In this document: positions 717 through 24,684 of the stretch, one piece after another
How positions within the stretch are numbered: the first letter of the stretch is position 1
Layout of the letters: each line of letters opens with the position of its first letter
Origin: Nanobdellota archaeon
Lineage (GTDB): Archaea; Nanobdellota; Nanobdellia; Woesearchaeales; WJIZ01
Assembly: GCA_023140175.1 (NCBI GenBank)
Contig: JAGLMD010000088.1
Span: 1 to 34,028, forward strand
DNA length: 34,028 nt
Reading direction: 5' to 3'
Program-made: the position numbers and the translations under genes
The notes under the pieces: generated by a model
Databases searched by the model: none
Seen by the model: only the letters and a program-made list of their open reading frames with translations
What the model was told of the DNA's origin: nothing

Positions 717-1751
717 ATGGATGAATTCAAGAATAAGATAGAAGCAATTTTGTTCTCGGTCGGAAAATACATCCCTATAGAGAATATTGCAAAGCTTTGT
801 AATGAAGATGTTCAGAAAGTCAAAGAATCATTAAGAGAATTGCAGGTAGATTATGAGAATAATCCTGGTTCTTTACTTGTGCTGAATGATGGTGAAATGT
901 GGAAGCTTACAACAAGAGAAGAATATGTCCAGGTTGTAAGAAAGGTTGTTTCTGAAACTGAGCTTAGTAAAACTTTACTTGAGACATTGGCTGTCATTGC
1001 TTTTAAATATCCGATAAAACAATCTGACCTTATTAAAATAAGAACCAATAAGGCTTACGACCACCTTATGGAACTAGAAAGAGATGGATTCATTACAAGA
1101 AAGAAGTATGGAAGATCCAGGCTGATAAAACTGACTGACAAATTTTTTGAGTATTTTGATTTACCAAGAGAGAAACTAAAAGATAGGTTTAAGGGATTTG
1201 AGCAGCTCGCAGATACAATAGAGGGCAAGGAAAAGGAAATTGAAATAGTTAAAGATGAGCAAAGAAAAGCTGCTGAGGAAGCAAAGAGTGAAGAAAAGAA
1301 AGTGACAGATAGTGAAATAGAGATTGACCTGGTTGATGATGAAGGCAAAAAAGAGAAATTAGAGGTATTTGAAGAACCAGGAGAAATAGGGAAAGTAGAA
1401 GAAATTAAAGAAAAGCTGGGGAAGTTAGATGTTGTCGATGAAGAACCAAGGGAAGAATCAGAAGAAATTGCTAAAGAGACTGAAGATGAAAGATGTGAAG
1501 GTGGAGATGTTGAAAAGGAGAAAGATATTGATGATATTTTGAATATTAAGAAAGAAGATGATTCTAAAATAGATGATAGTGAAGAAAAGAAAAAAGAAGA
1601 GACAGAAGAAGATGTTAATACTGAAGAGAAAGAAGAAAGTGAAGATCTAGAGAAAAGAGAGGAAGATGAAAAAGAAGAGGGAGTTGACTTATTAGAAGCA
1701 GAACAAGCTGAGGATGAGACAAATTTTGACAAAGAAGAAGGAAAGAGATGA
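717..1751 (+). CDS. scpB: Segregation and condensation protein B (ScpB) with long acidic tail
   Basis: ScpB is a dimer of tandem winged-helix domains that joins the SMC-kleisin complex in chromosome condensation and segregation. Residues 1-175 match the family: KIEAILFSVGKYIPIENIAKL opens the first winged helix, and LETLAVIAFKYPIKQSDLIKIR with the YGRSRL turn forms the second. The family is usually about 180-220 residues. Here the protein has 344, because residues 185-344 form a low-complexity tail very rich in Glu, Lys and Asp and probably disordered. It starts one base after the stop of the preceding gene and is followed by a small zinc-ribbon gene. No smc gene lies in the window. Confidence 0.9.
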   Translation: MDEFKNKIEAILFSVGKYIPIENIAKLCNEDVQKVKESLRELQVDYENNPGSLLVLNDGEMWKLTTREEYVQVVRKVVSETELSKTLLETLAVIAFKYPIKQSDLIKIRTNKAYDHLMELERDGFITRKKYGRSRLIKLTDKFFEYFDLPREKLKDRFKGFEQLADTIEGKEKEIEIVKDEQRKAAEEAKSEEKKVTDSEIEIDLVDDEGKKEKLEVFEEPGEIGKVEEIKEKLGKLDVVDEEPREESEEIAKETEDERCEGGDVEKEKDIDDILNIKKEDDSKIDDSEEKKKEETEEDVNTEEKEESEDLEKREEDEKEEGVDLLEAEQAEDETNFDKEEGKR

Positions 1752-1760
1752 GATTATAAA

Positions 1761-1907
1761 ATGATGCTCTTACTGCTATGCCCCAAATGCAAGAACAAGA
1801 TGAAATATCAGAGCAAGACTATAATTTTAACTGGAAAAAGGAAGATATGTGTATATTGTGGATTTTCTTATAAAATAAAAGATAATATAGCTGAGAGACT
1901 AAAGTAA
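1761..1907 (+). CDS. Small zinc-ribbon protein (48 aa)
   Basis: This short gene starts at ATG 1761 (or 1764), nine bases after the scpB stop. It encodes 48 residues with a CPKC knuckle at positions 7-10 and a CVYC knuckle at 30-33, separated by 19 residues, which is a classic zinc ribbon. The C-terminal part is basic (SYKIKDNIAERLK). No catalytic domain is present, so it probably binds nucleic acid or protein as an adaptor. Position suggests translation with scpB. The function is unknown. Confidence 0.75.
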   Translation: MMLLLLCPKCKNKMKYQSKTIILTGKRKICVYCGFSYKIKDNIAERLK

Positions 1908-1970
1908 CAAATCAGAAATAAATTAATGATAAATTTGCTATATTTAAGCTCTAATTCTTAATAATTTTAC

Positions 1971-1986
1971 CGAAACGCTTATAAAC
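1971..1986 (+). promoter_or_regulatory. BRE/TATA promoter of gyrA
   Basis: A purine-rich BRE-like stretch (cgaaac) leads into cttataaa near 1978-1985. A start site would fall near 2008-2012, giving a leader of about 25 bases before ATG 2035. Confidence 0.55.
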
Positions 1987-2034
1987 AGTCAGGTATTCTT
2001 TTTATTGAAATAGAGCACTATTTCTCGACGAAAA

Positions 2035-4515
2035 ATGGCAGAAGAACAAGACAAGACAGAGAGAGAAGAACAGGCAAAAAAAGAAAGAATTATACCTAGA
2101 GAAATAGAAACAGAAATGAAGGAGAGTTACTTAAATTATACTATGTCTGTTATTGTTGGACGGGCTCTGCCTGATGTGAGAGATGGTTTAAAGCCCGTAC
2201 ACAGAAGGATTCTTTATTCTATGTATGAAGAAGGGATGTTCCATAATAAGCCATATAAGAAATCTGCAAGGGTTGTAGGTAATGTTTTAGGAAGATATCA
2301 CCCGCATGGGGATAGCGCTGTTTATGATTCTATGGTCAGGATGGCGCAGGATTTTTCTTTGCGCTATATACTTGTTAATGGCCAGGGTAATTTCGGTTCA
2401 GTAGATGGTGACCCGCCGGCAGCTATGAGATATACAGAAGTAAGGCTTAATAAGCTGGCTGAAGAGATGCTTGAGGATATAAATAAAGACACTGTGAATT
2501 TTGTTGATAATTTTGATGGCAGCTTGAAGGAGCCATCTGTTTTGCCTTCTAAGATTCCTAATCTCCTGATTAATGGTTCAAGCGGAATAGCAGTAGGAAT
2601 GGCCACAAATATTCCGCCCCACAATATAGGAGAGACTATTGGAGCAGCAATAAGTATCATAGATAATCCTGATATAAGTATAGATCACATTATGCACTAC
2701 ATTACTGGCCCTGATTTTCCTACGGGTGGAATAATCTGTGGAAGGAATGGAATTATCAATGCTTATATGACTGGGAGAGGCAAGGTTATTGTAAAGGCAA
2801 AATATGGTATAGAAGAGAAGAAAGGAAAGAAAAGCATCATAGTTAATGAAATACCATATGCGGTTAATAAGGCAGAGATGATAAAAAATATTGCCAATCT
2901 TATAAGAGATAAGAAGATTCATGGGATAGCAGATTTAAGAGATGAATCTGACAGAGACGGAATGAGGATAGTAATCCAATTGAAGAGTGATGTAAATGAA
3001 GATGTTGTTATGAATCATCTTTTCAAGCATTCGAGAATGCAGATTACATTCGGAATAAATATGCTGGCTTTAGTTGACAATAAGCCCAGGATACTGAATA
3101 TAAAGGAGATGCTTGAGAACTATATTGACCATAGAAAAGAGGTTGTGATAAGAAGAACACAATTTGAACTTAAGAAATCTGAGGAAAGGGCGCATATTCT
3201 TGAGGGGATAATAAAAGCATTGGATAATGTTGACCTTGTAATTAGGCTGATCAGGAAAGCAGATACAATAGGAAATGCAAGAGCTGCCTTAATGCAGAAT
3301 TTTGAAATAACAGAAATACAGGTCAATGCAATTCTTGATTTAAAATTACAGAAATTGGCAGGCATGGAACAGGAGAAAATAAAGAAAGAGCATAAAGAGC
3401 TTTTAGAATTAATAGAGAAATTAAAAGCCAGATTAGCAAGCGAAAAAGAGATTTATGCTATAATCAGGAAAGAGCTGGTTGAACTAAAAGAAAAATATAA
3501 TGATGACAGAAGAACAAAAATCAGCAGCGAAGAAGTTACTGAACTGGATATGGAAGACCTGGTTGAAACGGAAGATATGGTAATAACAGTTACTGCACAA
3601 GGATACATAAAGAGACAAAGCATAGATTTGTATAAACAGCAGAAAAGAGGGGGGATAGGCATAATTGCCGCAAACACCAGAGAAGAGGATTTTATAAAAG
3701 ACATTTTCATAGCCAATACCCATTCTTATCTTTTGTTTTTTACTGATAAAGGAAAGGTCTATTGGCTCAAGACTTATTATGTGCCTGAGGGAAGCAGACA
3801 ATCAAGAGGGAAAGCGATTGTGAATCTTCTTAATCTTGAAAAAGGAGAAAAGATAACTACATATATCCCTATAAGAAAATTCTCTAAAGGAGATTACTTA
3901 ATTATGGCTACGCGTAAAGGGATAATAAAGAAAACCAGCCTGGAATCATATTCTAATCCAAGAAGAGGCGGTATAATTGCTGTGAATCTTCGTGATAATG
4001 ATAAGCTGGTAGATGTGGTTCTTACTGATGGAAACCAAAAGATATTATTGGCTACAAAGAAAGGGATGGCTGTGAAGTTTGATGAAAAAGATGTGAGGGC
4101 AGTTGGAAGAAATGCAAGCGGAGTGAGAGGGATAAGATTAAGAGGAGAAGATGAAGTTATAGGGATGATTATCGCTGAAGATAGTAAGACATTATTTACT
4201 ATAACCAAAAAGGGTTATGGAAAGAGAACAAAGATAGGAGAATACAGAATAATAAACAGGGGCGGAACTGGTGTCATTAATATAATAACCAATGACAGAA
4301 ATGGAGAAGTTGTTTTTGTTTTAAGCCTTGATGAAGAAGAGGAGCTCATGACAATAACAAAGAGGGGAATAGCGATAAGATTGGTTTCATCCGGTATTTC
4401 TGTTATAGGAAGAAATACCCAGGGAGCACGGATAATGAAGTTAAGAGAAGGAGATGCTGTTGTAGGAGCTACGAAAATAAAGAAAGAAGATGAAGAATCT
4501 GAAGAGGAAGTATAG
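2035..4515 (+). CDS. gyrA: DNA gyrase subunit A
   Basis: GyrA is the breakage-reunion subunit of gyrase (A2B2), which introduces negative supercoils using ATP hydrolysed by GyrB. The 826-aa product is near the usual length. The winged-helix/tower region carries the catalytic tyrosine in AAMRYTE (Tyr133). The quinolone-pocket sequence [10 protein letters not shown] (about 89-98) keeps the Ser and Asp typical of sensitive enzymes. The GyrA box in the C-terminal beta-pinwheel is QKRGGIG (536-542), a mild variant of QRRGGKG, so wrapping and true gyrase activity are likely rather than topo IV-like activity. Repeats of the pinwheel follow to about residue 805, then an acidic tail. Gyrase in archaea is considered an acquisition from bacteria. 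gyrB is not adjacent in this window. Confidence 0.95.
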
Positions 4516-6655: not shown

Positions 6656-6992
6656 CTGCAGGATAGGTACTTAGCTATCGGTTTTTCGTAAACTGAGGAA
6701 AGTCCGCCCTCCCTCTCGTTTGAGAGAAGTATTTGCCTTGTAATGAGGATTCAGTAATGGATGGCAACCACGCAGAAACGAAACCACCTATATTTAGGAT
6801 GATGTTTTGCGAAGCTCTTGGTGACAAGAGTAAGATAACCAACTGACTTTGATATAGGAAAGGGTGAAACGGTGAGATCCCATCTGGAGCAAGTCTTTTG
6901 ACGCTTAGTTAAATGCTAAGAGGGCCATCAAAGTTTGCATCGCAAACACATTAATGGGCCCTTACAAAAGGCGGCTTATTCCTGTCCTGCAA
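6656..6992 (+). ncRNA. rnpB: RNase P RNA (archaeal)
   Basis: This is the catalytic RNA that trims tRNA 5' ends. Helix P1 is seen as tgcagga (6657-6663) pairing with tcctgca (6985-6991). The universal core motif GAGGAAAGTCC sits at 6695-6705, and its P4 partner GGCGGCTT is near 6970-6977. The conserved ggtgaaacggtgag region is at about 6865-6878. Internal hairpins such as gtttgc/gcaaac also appear. The length of about 335 nt is normal for archaea. It is flanked by a clear TATA box and an AT-rich, T-rich tail (7014-7023). Confidence 0.93.
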
Positions 6993-7050: not shown

Positions 7051-7224
7051 ATGGGAAGAGATAAAATGCAAATGCCTTCGGGCATGGGCGGATTAGTAAG
7101 ATATTTTGATGAATATAAGAGCAAGATAGAGTTTAAGCCGGGCCATATCATAATTCTATGTGTTGTTGTTATTGCAATTATGGTATTTCTTTATACCTAT
7201 GGTGGAAAACTTCTAGGATTTTAG
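7051..7224 (+). CDS. secG: Preprotein translocase Sec61-beta subunit
   Basis: This 57-aa single-pass protein has the Sec61-beta signature. A short polar N-terminus with PSGMGGLVRYFDEY (9-22) is followed by EFKPGHIIILCVVVIAIMVFL, which is one membrane helix, and a short GGKLLGF end. Sec61-beta is the peripheral small subunit of the SecYE-beta protein-conducting channel. A TATA-like ttttttaaag at about 7016-7026 suggests a leaderless or near-leaderless message. The NAC gene follows after four bases, so two proteins acting at the nascent-chain exit share one operon. Confidence 0.9.
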   Translation: MGRDKMQMPSGMGGLVRYFDEYKSKIEFKPGHIIILCVVVIAIMVFLYTYGGKLLGF

Positions 7225-7228
7225 GAAA

Positions 7229-7570
7229 ATGATGCCAGGAATGAACCCAAGGATGATGAAACAGGCTATGAAGCGAATGGGCATCAAGCAGGAAGAAATA
7301 GAAGCTACCGAAGTTATCATAAAAACACCTGAAAAAGAGATAATTATTTCTGAGCCATCTGTGAGTAAGGTGAATATGATGGGCCAGGAGACCTGGCAAG
7401 TGGCAGGAGAGGCTGTAGAAAGGGATATTAACAGCGAACCCGAAATAAATGAAGAAGACATAAATACTGTTGTTGAACAGACTGGAGTAAGCGAGGATAA
7501 AGCAAGAGAAGTTATTGAGAAACATAAAGGAGATTTGGCTGCTGCTATAATGGAGCTGCAGAATAGTTAG
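7229..7570 (+). CDS. nac: Nascent polypeptide-associated complex protein (archaeal alpha-NAC)
   Basis: The 113-aa protein matches archaeal NAC, a ribosome-bound homodimer that contacts emerging chains. A methionine-rich start (MMPGMNPRMMKQAMKRMGIKQ) precedes the NAC beta-barrel domain (about 22-72, EIIISEPSVSKVNMMGQETWQV). A UBA domain covers about 76-113 (INTVVEQTGVSEDKAREVIEKHKGDLAAAIMEL). The length is typical. It follows the Sec61-beta gene by four bases. Confidence 0.93.
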   Translation: MMPGMNPRMMKQAMKRMGIKQEEIEATEVIIKTPEKEIIISEPSVSKVNMMGQETWQVAGEAVERDINSEPEINEEDINTVVEQTGVSEDKAREVIEKHKGDLAAAIMELQNS

Positions 7571-7603: not shown

Positions 7604-7648
7604 ATATGAAAGATTATAGAAACATTTATATATTATAATACGTTTTTT

Positions 7649-7685
7649 AGGTATTGACAATACCTTTATAAGGTATTATAATACC
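7649..7685 (+). promoter_or_regulatory. Palindromic operator surrounding a TATA box
   Basis: Two perfect inverted repeats stand in tandem: aggtatt-gac-aatacct (7649-7665) and ggtatt-at-aatacc (7672-7685). Between them is the TATA element tttata (7665-7670), 21 bases before ATG 7689. The half-site ggtatt/aatacc thus occurs four times with regular spacing. Protein bound here would block TBP, so autorepression of the downstream operon is likely. Confidence 0.7.
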
Positions 7686-7688
7686 AAA

Positions 7689-7823
7689 ATGAAGATAGAA
7701 ATTGATAATGTTGATGAAGTGATTGAAGGAAAGATTGAATCTTATAGTACAAGCACCAGGATTGCTATTCCGAAGAAATATGCAAAAAGGAAGGTAAAAA
7801 TAATTATACTGATGGAGAAATGA
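7689..7823 (+). CDS. Small AbrB/DUF2080-like DNA-binding protein (44 aa)
   Basis: ATG 7689 opens a 44-codon gene directly behind the palindromic promoter. The product starts MKIEIDNVDEVIEGKIESY, continues STSTRIAIPKKYAKRKVKIII, and ends LMEK. The alternating pattern and the xxRIAIPKKYxxRKVKIII core resemble the swapped-hairpin half-barrel of AbrB/SpoVT transcription factors and the DUF2080 small proteins of archaeal mobile elements. Such proteins bind palindromic DNA as dimers, so it is a natural candidate to bind the operator next to its own gene. Its TGA stop overlaps the next ATG, indicating translational coupling. Family assignment is tentative because the protein is so short. Confidence 0.6.
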   Translation: MKIEIDNVDEVIEGKIESYSTSTRIAIPKKYAKRKVKIIILMEK

Positions 7824-8311
7824 TGGAGAAATTCCAAGAGCTTAGGATGGGCGCAAAGAAAAAAATAGGGATTGCAGACCATATCCTGACCCAGACTTAT
7901 CCTTTGGTACAGGATTCAAAATTATTGCTGGCTGTTATTGAAAATGTCTTTTTGGCATTGACAAATTCAATGGGATCGATACTTTATTATGAAAGGCTAT
8001 TCAAAAGAATTCCTCCTTTTCAGGATACTTTTGATTCAAAGTTTAATATGTTTCAAGCAAGAATTGTAGATAGGAACAAGATAGATAGAAAGCATATAGA
8101 TATGATAAGAGAAGTCAAAGATATAATCATACAGCACAGAAAAAGCCCTATTGAGTTCAGAAGAAAGGATAAATTCATCATATGTAATGAGGATTATAAG
8201 ATGAGAACAATCTCTTTCAATGATATAAAAGAGTACATAAAGAGAACCAAGGAGTTTATTAATATTTCAGAGAGTATAACTATTAAAAATGAGGAGATAT
8301 TCAACAAATGA
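7820..8311 (+). CDS. Unknown helical protein, first of the cassette pair
   Basis: The 163-aa protein starts at ATG 7820 (or 7823), overlapping the preceding stop as ATGA. It appears all-alpha. A central stretch (LLLAVIENVFLALTNSMGSILYYERLFKRIPPF, about 35-68) is amphipathic, and a conserved-looking basic segment reads SPIEFRRKDKFIICNEDYKMRTIS (about 112-135). There is no signal peptide and no catalytic motif that I recognise. The helical pattern is reminiscent of HEPN-type folds, but the HEPN RxxxxH signature is not seen. It is coexpressed with the MinD-like ATPase two genes downstream and may act with it. Confidence 0.75.
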   Translation: MMEKFQELRMGAKKKIGIADHILTQTYPLVQDSKLLLAVIENVFLALTNSMGSILYYERLFKRIPPFQDTFDSKFNMFQARIVDRNKIDRKHIDMIREVKDIIIQHRKSPIEFRRKDKFIICNEDYKMRTISFNDIKEYIKRTKEFINISESITIKNEEIFNK

Positions 8312-8327
8312 TAGGGGGAATAATAAA

Positions 8328-8792
8328 ATGATTGAAAGTTATAAAGAATCCATAGAAGAATTCAAGAGGGTGGACCACCTTTTTTATGTGAGTCTTAAGT
8401 ATACAAGAACAGTAGATGTAATAAGAAGTGTTGTAGGAAGAATTATTTCAACATTTGAATATTCTATTGATGCACTGCTTAAATGTATGAAAGAAGAAAA
8501 AATAATAGAAGACCTGCCCAATAATCCTGTTGAGAAGGCTTTGCTTGCAAAAGAAAAATGTGGAAATGAGGAAATGCACGAGTACTTTGATAATTATCTT
8601 AATCTTAGAAAATTGATGAAGGCGGAATATACAAAAAGAGAAGAGTATAGAAGACATGTTACTATGATCGTGAATATGGAAGGAAAAACAACTGATATTG
8701 ACATAGACCTACTAAAAGAATATTATGAACAAGTAAGGAAATTTCTTGCTTATATAAAAGGAAGGGTTGAGAAATATAAAGAAGAAGAATAG
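8328..8792 (+). CDS. Unknown helical protein, second of the cassette pair
   Basis: The 154-aa protein is placed at ATG 8328, which has a purine-rich ribosome site (agggggaa, 8312-8320). An upstream in-frame ATG at 8289 lies inside the preceding gene. The sequence is largely helical and charged (DHLFYVSLKYTRTVDVIRSVVGRIISTFEYSIDALLKCM), ending in a Lys/Glu-rich helix. It shares general size and helicity with its upstream neighbour but no clear sequence identity. No known domain is recognised. It ends four bases before the ATPase gene. Confidence 0.72.
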   Translation: MIESYKESIEEFKRVDHLFYVSLKYTRTVDVIRSVVGRIISTFEYSIDALLKCMKEEKIIEDLPNNPVEKALLAKEKCGNEEMHEYFDNYLNLRKLMKAEYTKREEYRRHVTMIVNMEGKTTDIDIDLLKEYYEQVRKFLAYIKGRVEKYKEEE

Positions 8793-8796
8793 AAAG

Positions 8797-9489
8797 ATGA
8801 CCAGGATAATACATATCTCAGGCAATAGTGGAAGTGGAAAAAGTGTCTTAGCACTTAATCTGGGGATTGCACTAAGCCAAAAAGGGAGAGAAGTAATATT
8901 AGTTGATGGGAATATCTATTCAGCAGATATTGCAAATTATTCTGATATCTCCCCGGAAGTATTTCTGAACGAATTTCTGGATGGCGAAAAAGATATTGAG
9001 GAAACAATTGTCTTTCATCCTTCTGGGATGAAAATGATATTAAGTATGGCCGAGAAAGCATATACTCCAGAAAAGCACGAAAAACTAAACAAAGCATTAC
9101 TTTCTCTGACCGGAAAAACAGAATTTGTTTTGGTTGATTCTTTTTCACATAGTCCTGCGTTGTTTTCAGTTATTGATAATGCAGATGAGATGATATTTGT
9201 AACAAATGATGATTTTCCAAGCATACTAAAAAGCAAGGAATTCATAAAGAAGATAGAAAGCAAAGGCACAAATATAGTGGGAGTTGTATTAAATAAGAAA
9301 AGAAAGAACAGCAATAAGAAACATATAGAGGCCATACTTGAGAAGCGTGTTCTTGTAGAAATACCATATGATAAAAACCTGATTGACACTGTTAATATGA
9401 AACAACCCATTTCTCTAGTCTATCCTAAGTCAGAAACAAGCAAAGCTATAACAGAACTGGCTAAAATTATTGATATCTGGGAAAGATGA
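8797..9489 (+). CDS. MinD/ParA-like P-loop ATPase without the signature lysine
   Basis: The 230-aa protein begins at ATG 8797 and matches the MinD/ParA/Mrp class. Walker A is GNSGSGKS (9-16), followed by VLALNLGIALSQKGREVILVDGNIYSADIANY, which is the switch region. Walker B is FVLVDSF, and the guanine-site-like VVLNK is at about 167-171. The deviant Walker A of the class is GKGGxGKT. Here the signature lysine position is Asn10, so intersubunit ATP activation must differ or be lost. Such ATPases position proteins on membranes or DNA. The downstream gene, overlapping by four bases, encodes a membrane protein that is a plausible anchor. It is too short for full-length MinD and has no obvious amphipathic C-terminal helix. 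Confidence 0.8.
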   Translation: MTRIIHISGNSGSGKSVLALNLGIALSQKGREVILVDGNIYSADIANYSDISPEVFLNEFLDGEKDIEETIVFHPSGMKMILSMAEKAYTPEKHEKLNKALLSLTGKTEFVLVDSFSHSPALFSVIDNADEMIFVTNDDFPSILKSKEFIKKIESKGTNIVGVVLNKKRKNSNKKHIEAILEKRVLVEIPYDKNLIDTVNMKQPISLVYPKSETSKAITELAKIIDIWER

Positions 9490-10016
9490 AAAAAGGAATA
9501 AGAAAACAAGAGAGAGTAAATATTCCCGGAGAAGACATAATTGAAAAAGAAAGGTGGGATGAAGACGAGATAAAGAAAGCAGCAAAAATATTCTCAAAGG
9601 CAGAAAATAAAAAGAAGTTGATGATAAAAATACTAGATGAGATAGTCCATTGGGCACTTCTTTTAATTATTATTTGCGGAAATGTCCTGATTGCGGGATT
9701 TATTGTATTTTTATCTGGACTATTGGAAAGGGCATATTTCTATATTCTGGTTATTTTGTTTGCTGTTTTATTTGGGTATATGGTAGAAATTCCATTGAGA
9801 GACATCGAAAAGTTAAGCAAGCACAAACATTTTCTTTCCAGAATCCTGCTGCCGTTCCTGGCATTAGTTAATATATATATCTTGATAGGAATAAAACATG
9901 TAATTGAACATTTTTCCGAAATTGAATTTGAATTTAATGCTGCTATAGCAGGAGCAGTTTACGGAATGTTTTTCTTACTGCCTCATTTCTTAGGATGGAT
10001 ATTGAAGAGAAAGTGA
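9486..10016 (+). CDS. Four-helix membrane protein of the MinD-like cassette
   Basis: The 176-aa protein starts at ATG 9486, overlapping the ATPase stop (ATGA). Residues 1-50 form a charged cytoplasmic domain (ERWDEDEIKKAAKIFSKAEN). Four membrane spans follow: about 55-80 (WALLLIIICGNVLIAGFIVFL), 84-102, 118-140 and 149-173. Positive ends (KHKH, KRK) suggest both termini are inside. No transporter or enzyme family is recognised. It is the last gene of the cassette and may provide the membrane platform for the ATPase. Confidence 0.75.
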   Translation: MKKGIRKQERVNIPGEDIIEKERWDEDEIKKAAKIFSKAENKKKLMIKILDEIVHWALLLIIICGNVLIAGFIVFLSGLLERAYFYILVILFAVLFGYMVEIPLRDIEKLSKHKHFLSRILLPFLALVNIYILIGIKHVIEHFSEIEFEFNAAIAGAVYGMFFLLPHFLGWILKRK

Positions 10017-10060: not shown

Positions 10061-10151
10061 TGGGGTGGCTGCCGAGATTTGAACTCGGGCTATAAGATTT
10101 CTGCATATTGTGCCACAGTCTTATGTGCTGCCAAGCTACACCACAGCCACC
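10061..10151 (-). tRNA. tRNA-His (GTG) with a 14-nt intron
   Basis: Read on the minus strand, the acceptor stem GTGGCTG pairs with CAGCCAC. The T arm is GCCCGAGTTCAAATCTCGG-like, and the anticodon stem TAAGA/TCTTA encloses C-T-GTG-G. The anticodon GTG is at 10114-10116. The loop is 14 nt too long, which places an intron at about 10099-10112, after position 37, the standard archaeal site. The extra 5' G (10151) that marks tRNA-His and pairs with discriminator C73 is encoded, and so is the 3' CCA (10061-10063). It lies convergent to the MinD-like cassette and divergent from the ribosomal operon. Confidence 0.88.
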
Positions 10152-19180: not shown

Positions 19181-20722
19181 ATGCCGAAAAAAGTAATAAT
19201 CTTCGATACTACATTAAGGGATGGAGAACAGAGTCCTGGAGCTTCATTAACAGTTCAGGAAAAATTAATCATAGCAAAGCAGTTAGCAAGATTAAATGTG
19301 GACATCATTGAAGCAGGTTTTCCTATAAGCTCTGATGGAGATTTTGAAGCTGTGAAATTAATTGCACAGAAAGTAGAAGGGCCTGTAATATGTGGCTTAG
19401 CTAGAGCTATGAAGGAAGATATAAAGAGGGCATGGGATGCTGTAAAATACTCAAAAAAGCCAAGGATACATACTTTTATTGCAACTTCCCAAATTCATAT
19501 GGAGAAGAAGCTAAGAAAGTCAAAGGAAGAAATCATAGAAATGGTAATTGAAGCTGTTAGATACGCTAAATCATTATGTGATGATGTAGAGTTCACTCCA
19601 GAGGATGCATCGAGAACAGATATTGATTATATGTGTGATGTAATGAGAGCAGCAATAAAATCAGGAGCTACAACAATAAATATTCCTGATACAGTAGGAT
19701 ATGCACAGCCAGGGGAATTTGGAAATAGAATAAGGGCTGTATTTGAAAAAGTAAAAGAGGCTAAAAATGTAATAATAAGCATACACTGTCATGATGATTT
19801 AGGATTGGCTGTTGCAAACAGCTTGACAGCATTAAAGCAGGGAGCATTACAAATAGAATGTACTGTAAATGGTATTGGGGAGAGAGCAGGCAATTGCTCA
19901 TTAGAAGAGGTTATAATGAACATAAAAACAAGGAGAAATTTTTTCAAGGATTTTTATACTGAGATAGACACTAAAGAAATATATCCTACATCACAATTAG
20001 TCTCAAACCTTACTGGATTAATGGTGCAAAGAAATAAGGCGATAGTAGGGCAGAATGCTTTTGCCCATGAAGCAGGTATTCATCAGCATGGTATATTGAG
20101 TGCAAAAGAAACATATGAGATAATGAATCCTGAAGATATCGGATGGAGAGGAACTAACTTAGTAATAGGAAAGCATTCTGGAAAGCATGCTGTTGAGGCG
20201 ATTTTAAAGGAATCCGGATATGAGCTTGAAGATGAACAGGTAGAAAAGATAATAACTAAAGTAAAGAATTTGGCTGATAAACAAAAGAATGTAGAAAGAG
20301 ACGATATTATAGCTATAGCAGCTTCTGTAGCTGGGGCTCTATCGAAAGAAGATGTGATTGTAGAGCTGGATGAGGTGAAAATTATAACAGGCAACAAAAC
20401 AAAGCCAAAGGCGACAGTAAGTGTGATAATAGAAGGAGATAAAAAGATAGGAAAAGGAGAAGGTGTGGGGCCTGTTGATGCTGTAAGCCATGCTATCAAA
20501 AATATTGTTGGTGGAGAAATTGAATTGAAGGAATATAATCTGAAAGCAATTACTGGGGGAACAGATGCTTTGGCGGATGTAACAATAGCTATCGAAGACA
20601 AAAAAGGCAATATTTTTAGAGCACAGGGAATAAATGAAGATGTAATAATTGCTTCTGCAATAGCATTAGTAAAAGGTTTGAATAAAGCATTGATATTTAA
20701 GAAAAAAATACATGGTGAATAA
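19181..20722 (+). CDS. leuA: 2-isopropylmalate synthase
   Basis: LeuA condenses acetyl-CoA with 2-oxoisovalerate, the first committed step to leucine. The 513-aa protein has the HMGL-like TIM barrel with DTTLRDGEQSPGA (9-21), the metal-binding HCHDDLGLAVAN (about 205-216) and NGIGERAGNCSLEE. Next come the linker subdomains and the C-terminal LeuA dimer domain for leucine feedback (about 390-505, including GPVDAVSHAIKNI and TGGTDALADVTIAI). The length and the LTGLMVQRNKAIVGQNAFAHEAGIHQHG motif favour true LeuA over citramalate or homocitrate synthase, though substrate choice is not certain from sequence. A strong ggaggt ribosome site is at 19171-19176. Confidence 0.93.
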   Translation: MPKKVIIFDTTLRDGEQSPGASLTVQEKLIIAKQLARLNVDIIEAGFPISSDGDFEAVKLIAQKVEGPVICGLARAMKEDIKRAWDAVKYSKKPRIHTFIATSQIHMEKKLRKSKEEIIEMVIEAVRYAKSLCDDVEFTPEDASRTDIDYMCDVMRAAIKSGATTINIPDTVGYAQPGEFGNRIRAVFEKVKEAKNVIISIHCHDDLGLAVANSLTALKQGALQIECTVNGIGERAGNCSLEEVIMNIKTRRNFFKDFYTEIDTKEIYPTSQLVSNLTGLMVQRNKAIVGQNAFAHEAGIHQHGILSAKETYEIMNPEDIGWRGTNLVIGKHSGKHAVEAILKESGYELEDEQVEKIITKVKNLADKQKNVERDDIIAIAASVAGALSKEDVIVELDEVKIITGNKTKPKATVSVIIEGDKKIGKGEGVGPVDAVSHAIKNIVGGEIELKEYNLKAITGGTDALADVTIAIEDKKGNIFRAQGINEDVIIASAIALVKGLNKALIFKKKIHGE

Positions 20723-20723
20723 A

Positions 20724-22439
20724 ATGAATGGAGCACATGCAATTGTTGAGACTTTGTTAAAACATGGAACAGATGTTACTTTTGGTTTTCCTGGCGGAGC
20801 AGTCATACCTTTATTTGATGCTTATCTTGATTATAAAGATAAGATAAGGAATGTTTTAGTGAGGCATGAGCAGGGGGCAGCCCATGCTGCTGAAGGATAT
20901 GCAAGAGCATCTGGGAAAATAGGAGTATGCATAGCTACTTCCGGACCCGGTGCATGCAACTTAGTTACCGGGATAGCTGATGCATATATGGATTCAATCC
21001 CTATAATAGGATTTGGCGGACAGGTTCCAACTAGCCTGATAGGCAATGATGCTTTTCAGGAAACAGATATGATAGGTATAACATTGCCAATCACTAAGCA
21101 CAACTACCAGATCAGAGATCCTAATGGGATAGCTCCTACTATTATGAAAGCATATAAGCTTGCTCTGGAGGGAAGGCCTGGTCCAATCTATATAGACCTT
21201 CCAAAAGACATACAAAGCAAGGAAGTTACAGAAGCATTTCCAAATGAAGTCAAGATAGTGGGTTTCCAGCCTACAATAAAGCCCAATCCACTTCAGATAA
21301 ACAAGGCTGCTGAAGCTATGCTGCATGCTGAAATGCCTTTATTTTTGATAGGACAAGGAGTGATGATATCTAATGCGCATAGAGAATTACAGGAACTAGT
21401 AAATTTGACAGGGATTCCCGTAACAACAACATTTATGGGAAAGGGTGCGTTCGATGAAAGGCACCCCTTAAGCTTAGGTATTGTAGGGATGCATGGAAGA
21501 AAAATAGCTAATTATGCAACTTTGCAGACAGATTTATTGATTACTATTGGATGCAGATTCTCTGATAGGATAACCGGCAATCTAAAGACATATGCAGAGA
21601 ATGCAAAAATCATACATGCTGATATTGACCCTGCCGAAATAGGGAAGAATGTTAAGGTAGATATACCCATTGTAGGAGATGCCAAAGAAATCTTAAAAGA
21701 ATTGATAGTCATGGTGAAGAAACTAGCAGTAAAAGAAAAGACAAAGTGGGTTAGTAAGATAAAGCAAAATAAAAAAACATGTGATGATTGTGTTCCTGTT
21801 AAGGAAACAAAGAGAATACATCCGAAGCATGTAATGCTGGAATTAAATAAGATAATGAAGCCAAAAGACATAGTTGTTACAGGAGTAGGGCAGCATCAGA
21901 TGTTTGCAGGACATTTTATCAGGAGAAGCAAACCAAGGACATTTATTAGTTCTGGGGGGGCAGGCACCATGGGTTTTGGGTTTCCTGCTGCGATAGGCGC
22001 TAAAGTAGCTAAGCCAGACTCCAATGTATTCCTGATAGATGGTGATGGCTCATTCCAGATGACAATTCAGGAGTTAGGAACAGTAAAAGAAGGCAACATT
22101 AAAGTCATACCTATTATTATGAATAATTCATACCTTGGAATGGTTAGGCAATGGTTAGAACTTTTCTCAGATAAAAGATATTCAGAAGTTTATTTAGGCA
22201 GGACCCCTGATTTTGTTAAAGTAGCTGAGGCTTATGGTCTAGAAGGAATCAGGGTTGAGAAGAAATCAGAATTTTTACCTGCCATTGAACAAGCAATAAA
22301 GAATGATGTTACAACTATTGTTGATGTTGTAACAGAAGAAGAATCAAATATACTGCCAATGTTATTGCCGGGGGGGCATTTGAAAGATGCTTTTGGCGGA
22401 TGCATGGCTGCCCCGGGAAAATATTTCAGGGGTGATTGA
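20724..22439 (+). CDS. ilvB: Acetolactate synthase large subunit
   Basis: IlvB is the thiamin diphosphate (ThDP) and FAD enzyme that forms acetolactate or acetohydroxybutyrate for valine, leucine and isoleucine. ATG 20724 is chosen over 20712 because ggtga (20714-20718) then acts as ribosome site and MNGAHAIVETLLKHG matches the family start. The 571-aa product has the cofactor-activating Glu49 (RHEQGAAHAAEGYARAS) and the FGGQVP and FQETD segments. The ThDP motif GDGSF…MNNSYLGMVRQW (from about 438) and a C-terminal GGCMAAPGKY complete the match. It follows leuA with one base between. Confidence 0.96.
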   Translation: MNGAHAIVETLLKHGTDVTFGFPGGAVIPLFDAYLDYKDKIRNVLVRHEQGAAHAAEGYARASGKIGVCIATSGPGACNLVTGIADAYMDSIPIIGFGGQVPTSLIGNDAFQETDMIGITLPITKHNYQIRDPNGIAPTIMKAYKLALEGRPGPIYIDLPKDIQSKEVTEAFPNEVKIVGFQPTIKPNPLQINKAAEAMLHAEMPLFLIGQGVMISNAHRELQELVNLTGIPVTTTFMGKGAFDERHPLSLGIVGMHGRKIANYATLQTDLLITIGCRFSDRITGNLKTYAENAKIIHADIDPAEIGKNVKVDIPIVGDAKEILKELIVMVKKLAVKEKTKWVSKIKQNKKTCDDCVPVKETKRIHPKHVMLELNKIMKPKDIVVTGVGQHQMFAGHFIRRSKPRTFISSGGAGTMGFGFPAAIGAKVAKPDSNVFLIDGDGSFQMTIQELGTVKEGNIKVIPIIMNNSYLGMVRQWLELFSDKRYSEVYLGRTPDFVKVAEAYGLEGIRVEKKSEFLPAIEQAIKNDVTTIVDVVTEEESNILPMLLPGGHLKDAFGGCMAAPGKYFRGD

Positions 22440-22440
22440 A

Positions 22441-22926
22441 ATGGAAAGAAGACATGTTATTGCTATGCTTGTTGAGGATCAACCAGGAGTTTTGACAAGG
22501 ATTGCCGGAATGTTTGCCAGAAGAGGTTTTAATATAGAGACAATCACAGTCGGAAAAACCACCAAAAAGGGAGAAAGCAAAATGGTTATTACTGTGATAG
22601 GTGATGATGATATGTTAGAACAGGTTGAAAAGCAGGTAAATAAGTTAATCGATACCATAAAGGTAACAGAAATGCCCGATGAAAGATCTGTAATTAAGGA
22701 GCTCTGTCTAATTAAAGTTAATATCGCTAATCAAAAAGTGAAAGATGAGATATTAAAATATACTGATATTTATAAGACTAAGATAGTTGATATTACGACG
22801 AAAGAAGCGACTATGGAGATTATTGGTGATCCGGGAAAGGTAGACTCATTTATTGATTTGATGAAACAATTCGGGATAAAAGAGGTTTCGAGAACAGGTG
22901 TAACTGCTATCTCGAGGAGTCGATAA
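22441..22926 (+). CDS. ilvN: Acetolactate synthase small (regulatory) subunit
   Basis: IlvN stimulates IlvB and confers valine feedback inhibition. ATG 22441 follows the ilvB stop by one base. The 161-aa protein begins [38 protein letters not shown], an ACT domain (1-80). The C-terminal ACT-like half is also present ([12 protein letters not shown]…[20 protein letters not shown]). The length is normal. Confidence 0.95.
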
Positions 22927-22927
22927 T

Positions 22928-24199
22928 ATGTCCGGGATGACTATAACTGAGAAAATATTGGCAAGGCATTGTGGAAAAGAGAAGATAGTGCCGGGAGAAT
23001 TAATTAATGCTAAGATAGACATAATTATGTGCCATGATATCACAACAACTCCTGCAATTGATATGTTAGAGAAAGCTGGAATAGATAGGGTTTTTGATCC
23101 TTCAAAGATTGTTGTTATACCAGACCACTTTGTTCCTAATAAAGATATACAAAGTGCTGAGATGGTCAATAGAATTAGAAAATGGGCAAAGAAACATGGA
23201 ATAAATAATTTTTATGATATTGGCAGGCATGGTGTATGCCACGCTATCTTACCAGAGCAGGGCCATATTGTTCCGGGAATGACCATAATTGCGGGAGATT
23301 CCCATACTTGTACACATGGTGCATTGGGAGCATTTGCAACAGGAGTAGGAAGTACTGATATTGCAGCTGCTTTAGCTGCTGGAGAATTATGGTTTAAGGT
23401 TCCGGAAACAATAAAGTTTCAGGTTGATGGAAAATTAGCTTCTGGAGTTTATTCAAAAGATATAATATTGGCTATAATAAGAGATACAGGAGTAGACGGT
23501 GCTTTGTATAAGGCAATGGAATTTACTGGCTCGACAATTTCTGACTTAAGTGTGGAAGCAAGAATGACTATAACAAATATGGCTATCGAAGCCGGAGGAA
23601 AAAGTGGAATTATTGAGCCTGATAAAAAAACAGAAGAGTATGTTAAGGCAAGAACCGATAAGGAATATTCTGTTGTCAGGTCTGATAAAGATGCAGGATA
23701 TTTAGATATAAAGAAATATGATGCTTCTAAATTTGAGCCTATTGTTGCATTTCCCAATCTGCCGTCTAATGGAAAGAATATTAATGAGATAAAAGAGGAC
23801 ATTAGGATTGATCAAGCTTATTTAGGAAGCTGCACAAATGGAAGGATAGAAGATTTAAGAATTGCTGCTTTGATAATGAAAGGCAACAAAGTTAAGAAAG
23901 GAACAAGAATGATTGTTGTGCCTGCTACAACAGATATATGGAAACAGGCAAATAAAGAAGGTTTATTGGATATATTCATGGAAGCAGAAGCAACTGTCTC
24001 TACACCGACATGCGGAGCATGCCTGGGCGGACATATGGGCATACTTGCTAAAGGTGAGAGATGTATATCATCCACTAACAGAAATTTTGTTGGAAGGATG
24101 GGACATCCTGAAAGTGAGGTTTACTTAGCTTCCCCTGCTACAGTCGCTGCATCAGCTATTGAAGGAAAGATTGCAGATCCAAGGGGGTACTTAAAATGA
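22928..24199 (+). CDS. leuC: 3-isopropylmalate dehydratase large subunit
   Basis: LeuC with LeuD isomerises 2- to 3-isopropylmalate. The 423-aa protein is of the shorter archaeal/HACN type. It has the 4Fe-4S ligands Cys302 (GSCTNGR), Cys362 and Cys365 ([10 protein letters not shown]), and the active-site [16 protein letters not shown] region (121-136). gaggag at 22914-22919 is the ribosome site. Homoaconitase-type specificity cannot be excluded by sequence, but neighbours favour leucine synthesis. It overlaps leuD by four bases. Confidence 0.94.
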
Positions 24200-24684
24200 A
24201 GATAAAGGGATTTGCCCATGTATACCAGAGAGATGATATCAATACTGATGAAATTATTCCCGCTAGGTATCTCAATATGGATAAAGAAAAGGATTTAGCT
24301 TTGCATGCAATGGAAGATTTAGATAAAGAGTTTCTTAAAAGAGTTAAGAGAGGAGATTTTGTTATTGCTAAGGATAATTTTGGGTGCGGGAGTTCGAGAG
24401 AGCATGCAATATGGGCTCTTCGGGGAAGTGGAATTAGAGCTGTGATTGCAAATAGCTTTGCCAGAATTTTCTATAGGAATGCTATTAATAATGGTTTTTT
24501 AGCAATTGAATGCAAAGATATTGCAGACAAAGTTTCAAAGGGAGATGAATTAGAGATTGATGTATCTAATGGCATGATTAAAAATCTAAGCAAAAATGAA
24601 GAATATAGTTTTACTCCCTTGCCTGAATTTGCAATAGAGTTGATGGATGCTGGCGGGCTGATTAATTATATAAAGAAGAAATGA
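24196..24684 (+). CDS. leuD: 3-isopropylmalate dehydratase small subunit
   Basis: LeuD is the swivelling small subunit that completes the isopropylmalate isomerase site. The 162-aa product has [14 protein letters not shown] near the start, [10 protein letters not shown] (about 62-71) as substrate loop, and [18 protein letters not shown]. It overlaps leuC as ATGA, so synthesis is coupled. It is the last gene of the operon; leuB, ilvC and ilvD are not in the window. The convergent ASCH gene follows 18 bases later. Confidence 0.95.

Follow-up and report, generated by a model that had tools for sequence, protein, structure and literature searches.

The window analysed here, a contig of 34,028 nucleotides (JAGLMD010000088.1, assembly GCA_023140175.1) from a Nanobdellota archaeon of the order Woesearchaeales, carries a cassette of five co-directional + strand open reading frames (ORFs) at positions 7689–10016, designated AbrB44, G2, G3, ATPase and MEM, which overlap or nearly abut one another as an initial annotation of this DNA had described. 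AbrB44 (44 aa, 7689–7823), a DUF2080 swapped-hairpin-type DNA-binding protein, shares an ATGA overlap with G2 (163 aa, 7820–8311), and G3 (154 aa, 8328–8792) follows after a gap of 16 nt; both G2 and G3 have HEPN-like predicted folds. A further 4 nt separate G3 from the ATPase of the MinD subfamily (230 aa, 8797–9489), which in turn shares an ATGA overlap with MEM, a predicted membrane protein of 176 aa with four transmembrane (TM) segments (9486–10016). Immediately 5′ of the cassette and on the same strand lies the gene for the nascent polypeptide-associated complex protein (NAC, 7229–7570), with NAC and UBA domains (Pfam PF01849, E 6e-13; UBA_HYPK), preceded by Sec61beta (57 aa, 7051–7224; PF03911, E 9e-10) and by an RNase P RNA gene (6659–6989; Rfam RF00373, 123.9 bits against a cut-off of 84).

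The gene order at this locus is conserved far beyond chance. Of 99 genomes, 75 contained relatives of the ATPase, and nearly all of the loci around the best ATPase matches held G3, ATPase and MEM together, usually in the order Sec61beta–NAC–G2–G3–ATPase–MEM. A co-occurrence of the genes in other genomes, proposed in the initial annotation as a check on its claims, was thus observed, and an origin from DPANN archaea was also supported, the public relatives being Woesearchaeota and Nanoarchaeia metagenome-assembled genomes together with a few evidently mislabelled bins. A profile of G3, which is conserved class-wide, matched 212 of the 281 genomes of the class (Nanoarchaeia) and 133 of 158 good genomes. 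Around 97 G3 loci, 67 from inside the order (a sample chosen in part via the ATPase) and 30 from outside it, the adjacent genes were NAC in 84 cases, where it lay upstream, G2 in 76, Sec61beta in 74 and the ATPase in 70. The G2–G3, G3–ATPase and ATPase–MEM junctions usually overlapped or abutted. NAC–G2 gaps were variable, the gap to the downstream S13 gene was long (median 340 nt), and the cassette persisted when separated from S13. Sec61beta, which adjoins NAC, G2 and G3 throughout the class, was preceded by RNase P RNA in 9 of 10 further loci of the order, and 7 of 12 loci elsewhere in the class also held the RNA; no RNase P RNA was found in the nanoarchaeal stretch L239, where a 23S rRNA lay upstream instead.

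The downstream part of the cassette was less constant. Among 44 loci of the order that had been chosen via G3 and had enough downstream sequence, 13 carried both ATPase and MEM, 10 the ATPase only, 12 MEM only and 9 neither, and genome-wide searches detected no ATPase of this group in three genomes (G070, G160 and G179). In a single-contig nanoarchaeal genome of 605,887 bp, Sec61beta, G3 and the ATPase stood back to back. From these locus counts and from this genome it follows that the conserved core is the G2–G3 pair linked to NAC and Sec61beta, while the ATPase, MEM and AbrB44 were gained or lost in successive steps. Two ideas of the initial annotation are therefore not supported: the locus is not self-contained, its core being Sec61beta–NAC–G2–G3, lying in most loci tested downstream of RNase P RNA, and a system centred on the ATPase does not fit, since G2, G3 and MEM persist without it.

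The two ‘unknown cytoplasmic partners’ of the initial annotation proved to be conserved, but they are not two unrelated proteins. Comparison of their profiles (hhalign probability 97, E 5e-11, rising to 99, E 6e-18, with deeper alignments) indicates that G2 and G3 are paralogs. Searches of Pfam and NCBIfam gave no credible family for either of them and no Pfam HEPN match, and sequence searches of solved structures returned chance matches only. AlphaFold models were obtained with pLDDT values of 91.7 for G2 and 86.9 for G3; the best Foldseek match of the G2 model was AF_0298 (2hsb; probability 1.00, TMt 0.79, E 0.004), and the top match of the G3 model was HepT (7bxo; probability 1.00, TMt 0.63). 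Both models are predicted to have the four-helix HEPN fold, and the proteins are HEPN-like by this fold resemblance. No conserved pair corresponding to the Rx4-6H catalytic motif was seen in 97 G3 or 76 G2 sequences; several accepted HEPN families have only part of this motif or none of it, and Anantharaman et al. described families of the AF_0298 type in which the motif histidine is missing and a different histidine, nearer the N-terminus, is used instead (PMC3710099). In the 97 loci, residues K24, Y25, T28, D30, R38 and E106 of G3 were invariant, and H17 and R108 were conserved at 98% and 97%, respectively. Given these residues and the alternative N-terminal histidine of AF_0298-type HEPNs, an RNA-binding or catalytic surface on the modelled G3 is plausible.

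HEPN-MNT toxin–antitoxin systems were rejected as an identity for the pair: no MNT was present in the cassette or as a conserved neighbour, the Rx4-6H motif was absent and the genes were not mobile. The window's own genome holds at least seven matches to the HEPN family PF05168, which show no sequence relation to G2 or G3. Other lineages of the class encode a G2-like protein with a second short helical protein after it (L242, 4733–5621, and L243, 606–5501, both on the − strand; L244, 4897–7548), possibly a variant of the G2–G3 pair; in both L243 and L244 the two are succeeded by a PIN-domain ATPase-like gene, and in L243 by the ribosomal S13 and S4 genes as well.

The MinD-like ATPase lacking the signature lysine was identified correctly in the initial annotation. 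The window copy matched TIGR01969 (archaeal MinD) at E 9e-34 and 116.7 bits, below the curated cut-off of 201.75, and its P-loop, SGNSGSGKS, retains the Walker A GSGKS but not the lysine of the KGGxGK[ST] signature. Four of five same-operon orthologs tested exceeded the cut-off (230.7, 243.3, 247.2 and 242.2 bits), that of the nanoarchaeal L239 falling below it at 173.3. Because canonical orthologs from the same operon pass TIGR01969 at 231–247 bits, we assign the family by sequence to the archaeal MinD subfamily, with the window ATPase as a divergent member. Candidate identities elsewhere were rejected. For Get3/ArsA/TRC40, none of 40 relatives exceeded the TIGR00345 cut-off of 135 bits, and a protein of 230–260 aa leaves no room for the helical client-binding insert of Get3/ArsA; for Mrp/NBP35/NUBPL, the MrpORP and ApbC matches reached 30.2 bits against 450 and 24.4 against 348; and the score for bacterial MinD was far under the cut-off. 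Grouping with Mrp or ArsA, named beforehand as an outcome that would tie the ATPase to a settled role, was therefore not seen.

In a tree of 70 ATPases, the 12 sequences without the signature lysine fell into three separate, well-supported and long-stemmed clades, namely the window's family (all seven members), three loci of f24 and two loci of f54. The lysine was thus lost secondarily, three times, inside a canonical MinD family most of whose members retain it, and its absence marks three clades instead of being a trait of the system. Altered P-loops (KGGVAKTT, KGGVSKTT and KGGVGVTT) also occur in otherwise canonical MinD orthologs (L073, L132, L135, L141, L142 and L117), the KGGVSKT of L132 having the signature lysine; these changes of G or K by the catalytic site suggest a repeated weakening of ATP hydrolysis.

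The C-terminal tail of the ATPase, scored as present at 13 or more residues, showed a marked difference between the order and the rest of the class. Outside Woesearchaeales, where MEM is absent, all 24 adjacent ATPases had a tail, of 13–30 residues, and 20 of these 24 (e.g. GFFTRVFSRMGFK) had at least 15 residues and passed a simple amphipathicity threshold. Inside the order a tail was present in 16 of 46 (Fisher p 2e-8, not corrected for kinship), and the window ATPase, with three residues, is tail-less like all seven copies of its family. The dedicated membrane protein named in the initial annotation was confirmed as such by prediction: hydropathy gave three to four TM segments for MEM, and four in 15 of 20 relatives, with no credible Pfam family. 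MEM adjoined G3 in 45 of 67 loci of the order versus none of 30 outside it. As MEM remains beside G3 even in the absence of the ATPase (12 woesearchaeal loci without an adjacent ATPase, and genome G070), it may serve G2–G3 directly. From these distributions we infer that membrane anchoring can pass from the ATPase tail to MEM.

AbrB44, the ‘AbrB-like’ protein of the initial annotation, exceeded the cut-offs of both Pfam DUF2080 (23.0 bits against 21.5) and NCBIfam NF033496 (26.6 against 22), and its orthologs occupy the same place in all seven genomes of the window's family and in none of the other profiled loci. Upstream, a TATA-like promoter element, TTTATATAT, was read from the sequence at 7625–7633 (+ strand), and similar A+T boxes precede AbrB44 in most family members. 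It is followed by a candidate operator (7650–7685) with ATACC at 7660 and 7681, 21 bp apart, and inverted GGTATT at 7650 and 7672. All seven family promoters carry two to four ATACC copies, spaced by 10–11 or 21–22 bp, between the A+T box and the AbrB44 start, amounting to 19 copies in 7 × 75 nt against a background of 0.06 per 75 nt; among 90 loci outside the family, not one had two or more copies. As these spacings equal one or two helical turns, the repeats form a helically phased array. A promoter flanked by palindromes had been proposed here: the TATA-like element and the GGTATT/AATACC elements are present, but the conserved footprint is that of ATACC repeats and not of a palindrome, the palindromes being the window's form of the array. 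AbrB44 is thus a likely autoregulator of the cassette, autoregulation being the natural reading of this arrangement, and AbrB-type local control is supported to that extent. In the window's family, AbrB44 would repress the five genes by binding the phased repeats located after the TATA box and ahead of the AbrB44 start codon.

Taken together, the window genes represent a family-specific version of a class-wide module of DPANN archaea, whose context suggests a tie to nascent-protein handling and the Sec translocon. We favour, tentatively and with somewhat less than even confidence, a module linked to the translocon and the nascent chain: either a MinD switch or MEM would bring a HEPN-like heterodimer to the membrane. 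Since domains of the HEPN type function as dimers, G2 and G3 are expected to form such a heterodimer. Its conserved Lys/Tyr/Thr/Asp/Arg/Glu surface would bind RNA, the ribosome or the nascent chain near NAC and Sec61, and the MinD-type ATPase would be the nucleotide switch recruiting the dimer to the membrane or releasing it there. In most of the class the ATPase would act through its own amphipathic tail, and in Woesearchaeales MEM could take over the anchoring, so that the tail, the signature lysine or even the entire ATPase gene could then be lost.

Several observations weigh against this proposal. The function is assigned from gene neighbourhood, yet the adjoining genes (RNase P RNA, ribosomal proteins, RpoD) serve housekeeping tasks in translation and tend to cluster in any case, so that cells might simply transcribe them together with the cassette. 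The Foldseek E-values of G2 and G3 against HEPN structures, 0.004–0.012, lie above 0.001, and hhalign comparison with eight Pfam-HEPN proteins of the same order gave no support (probability 0.8–4); the HEPN relation is for these reasons claimed by fold only. Much of the conserved motif is lost in Nanopusillus-like G3, and the association between tail and MEM is phylogenetically confounded, the tail-less state being common in one order whether MEM is present or absent.

Membership of the ATPase in the archaeal MinD subfamily could point to spatial positioning, as the initial annotation proposed, the ATPase placing G2–G3 or their cargo at a membrane site with MEM as landmark, possibly for division or appendage placement. 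The amphipathic tail found outside the order resembles the membrane anchor of bacterial MinD, Haloferax MinD2 and MinD4 position the motility and chemotaxis machinery (PMC11588486, PMC11621097), and a missing signature lysine has a precedent in the ParA/MinD protein McdA, with SGGQGKT (PMC9178275, Table 1). We regard this as unlikely, however, since the ATPase is missing from many loci and some whole genomes that retain G2–G3, the signature lysine was lost three times with further P-loop changes elsewhere, and the cassette has NAC and Sec61beta as neighbours, with no gene for division or motility close by.

Another reading, improbable to a similar degree, is a ribonuclease with a housekeeping or stress role: under control of the ATPase and MEM, a G2–G3 HEPN RNase dimer would work at the ribosome or translocon on tRNA, rRNA or mRNA. 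The predicted fold with HepT and AF_0298 as top matches, invariant polar residues of a kind expected in an active or binding site, the adjoining RNase P RNA gene, and the presence in G3 of H17 and E106/R108, reminiscent of the N-terminal histidine of AF_0298-type HEPNs (PMC3710099), all speak for it; the classic Rx4-6H motif and any sequence link to Pfam HEPN are lacking, however, the cassette has no MNT antitoxin partner, and the near-universal vertical distribution is unlike that of toxin systems. Slightly less probable again in our estimation is an ancient housekeeping super-operon whose members share transcription but no common function. Sec61beta, NAC, RNase P RNA, rpS13-S4-S11 and rpoD are indeed all housekeeping genes, and the long S13 gaps and varying NAC–G2 gaps fit such a view, which is countered by the translational-coupling overlaps within G2–G3–ATPase–MEM, by the G3–ATPase pairing that persists in the 606 kb genome, and by survival of the cassette apart from S13.

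A literature search found no paper describing the operon, the fold, MEM or a function, and searches on NAC/Sec61/DPANN and on NAC of N. equitans found nothing. There is a real chance that the cassette, a MinD ATPase with its partners, is a new protein-biogenesis module. The fuller proposal built on the translocon-linked reading is doubtful: an undescribed class-wide DPANN complex for co-translational targeting or quality control. In it, a HEPN-fold heterodimer would cooperate with NAC and the Sec61 translocon under the gating of a MinD-type ATPase, whose membrane-anchoring role would have passed to a new 4-TM protein in Woesearchaeales. Few uncharacterised proteins are as highly conserved as G2 and G3 within this large group of reduced, mostly uncultured archaea, and the fixed link of the pair to NAC and Sec61beta yields a testable hypothesis on membrane-protein delivery in DPANN cells. 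The MinD branch, where lysine, tail and gene are lost stepwise, offers a natural series for the dismantling of a ParA/MinD switch and its replacement by a membrane protein. An apparently isolated cassette thus becomes a class-wide question, open to study in co-cultured Nanoarchaeota.

Downstream of the cassette, a tRNA-Ala(GGC) gene (10061–10150, − strand; ARAGORN, Rfam) on the opposite strand forms a conserved boundary before rpS13, S4, S11 and RpoD, and a tRNA occupies the matching gap in several relatives; an insertion 3′ of its anticodon resembles a small intron. Upstream, a ScpB-like protein and a GyrA-like DNA gyrase subunit are encoded at 717–4515; gyrA and a THUMP methyltransferase gene are conserved beside the cassette in many relatives. 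Farther away, at 19181–24684, the sequence indicates a 2-isopropylmalate synthase-like protein, the large and small subunits of acetolactate synthase and an isopropylmalate isomerase-like protein, a set for leucine and branched-chain amino-acid synthesis that is unusual in a DPANN archaeon.

Among known systems, cls.004340 (NEQ484) was described by Makarova et al. (2019) as a DPANN-specific alpha helical protein of typically house-keeping context, occurring in 35 of 67 DPANN genomes and in none outside DPANN (PMC6393860). It may be G3 or G2, the points in common being an alpha-helical make-up, restriction to DPANN, presence in about half of DPANN genomes and a housekeeping context; unlike here, no fold, partners or mechanism were given. 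AbrB44 resembles the DUF2080/AbrB-like transposon-associated proteins (PF09853) in exceeding the Pfam and NCBIfam cut-offs, but in one family it has a fixed place at the head of a chromosomal operon, together with a phased ATACC array. With the HEPN superfamily (HepT 7bxo, AF_0298 2hsb), G2 and G3 share the predicted four-helix core at Foldseek probability 1.00, and G3 shares a conserved N-terminal histidine with AF_0298-like members (PMC3710099), whereas the absence of Rx4-6H and of sequence-profile support, a beta-hairpin insert, and an operon with NAC/Sec61beta instead of MNT set them apart. The cassette ATPases resemble McdA-type ATPases in having lost the KGG lysine (GNAGQGKS and GNSGSGKS here, SGGQGKT in McdA), yet they lack a McdB or carboxysome context and lost it secondarily, three times within a canonical family. 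To archaeal MinD (TIGR01969; 1HYQ, 1G3Q; Haloferax MinD2 and MinD4) they correspond in fold and Walker motifs and, in many orthologs, in a MinD-like C-terminal tail; the window copy differs in its sub-cut-off score and in lacking both signature lysine and tail, and the cassette ATPase is encoded not as a lone gene or in a minD2-HVO_0596 arrangement but in an operon with Sec61beta, NAC and a HEPN-like pair.

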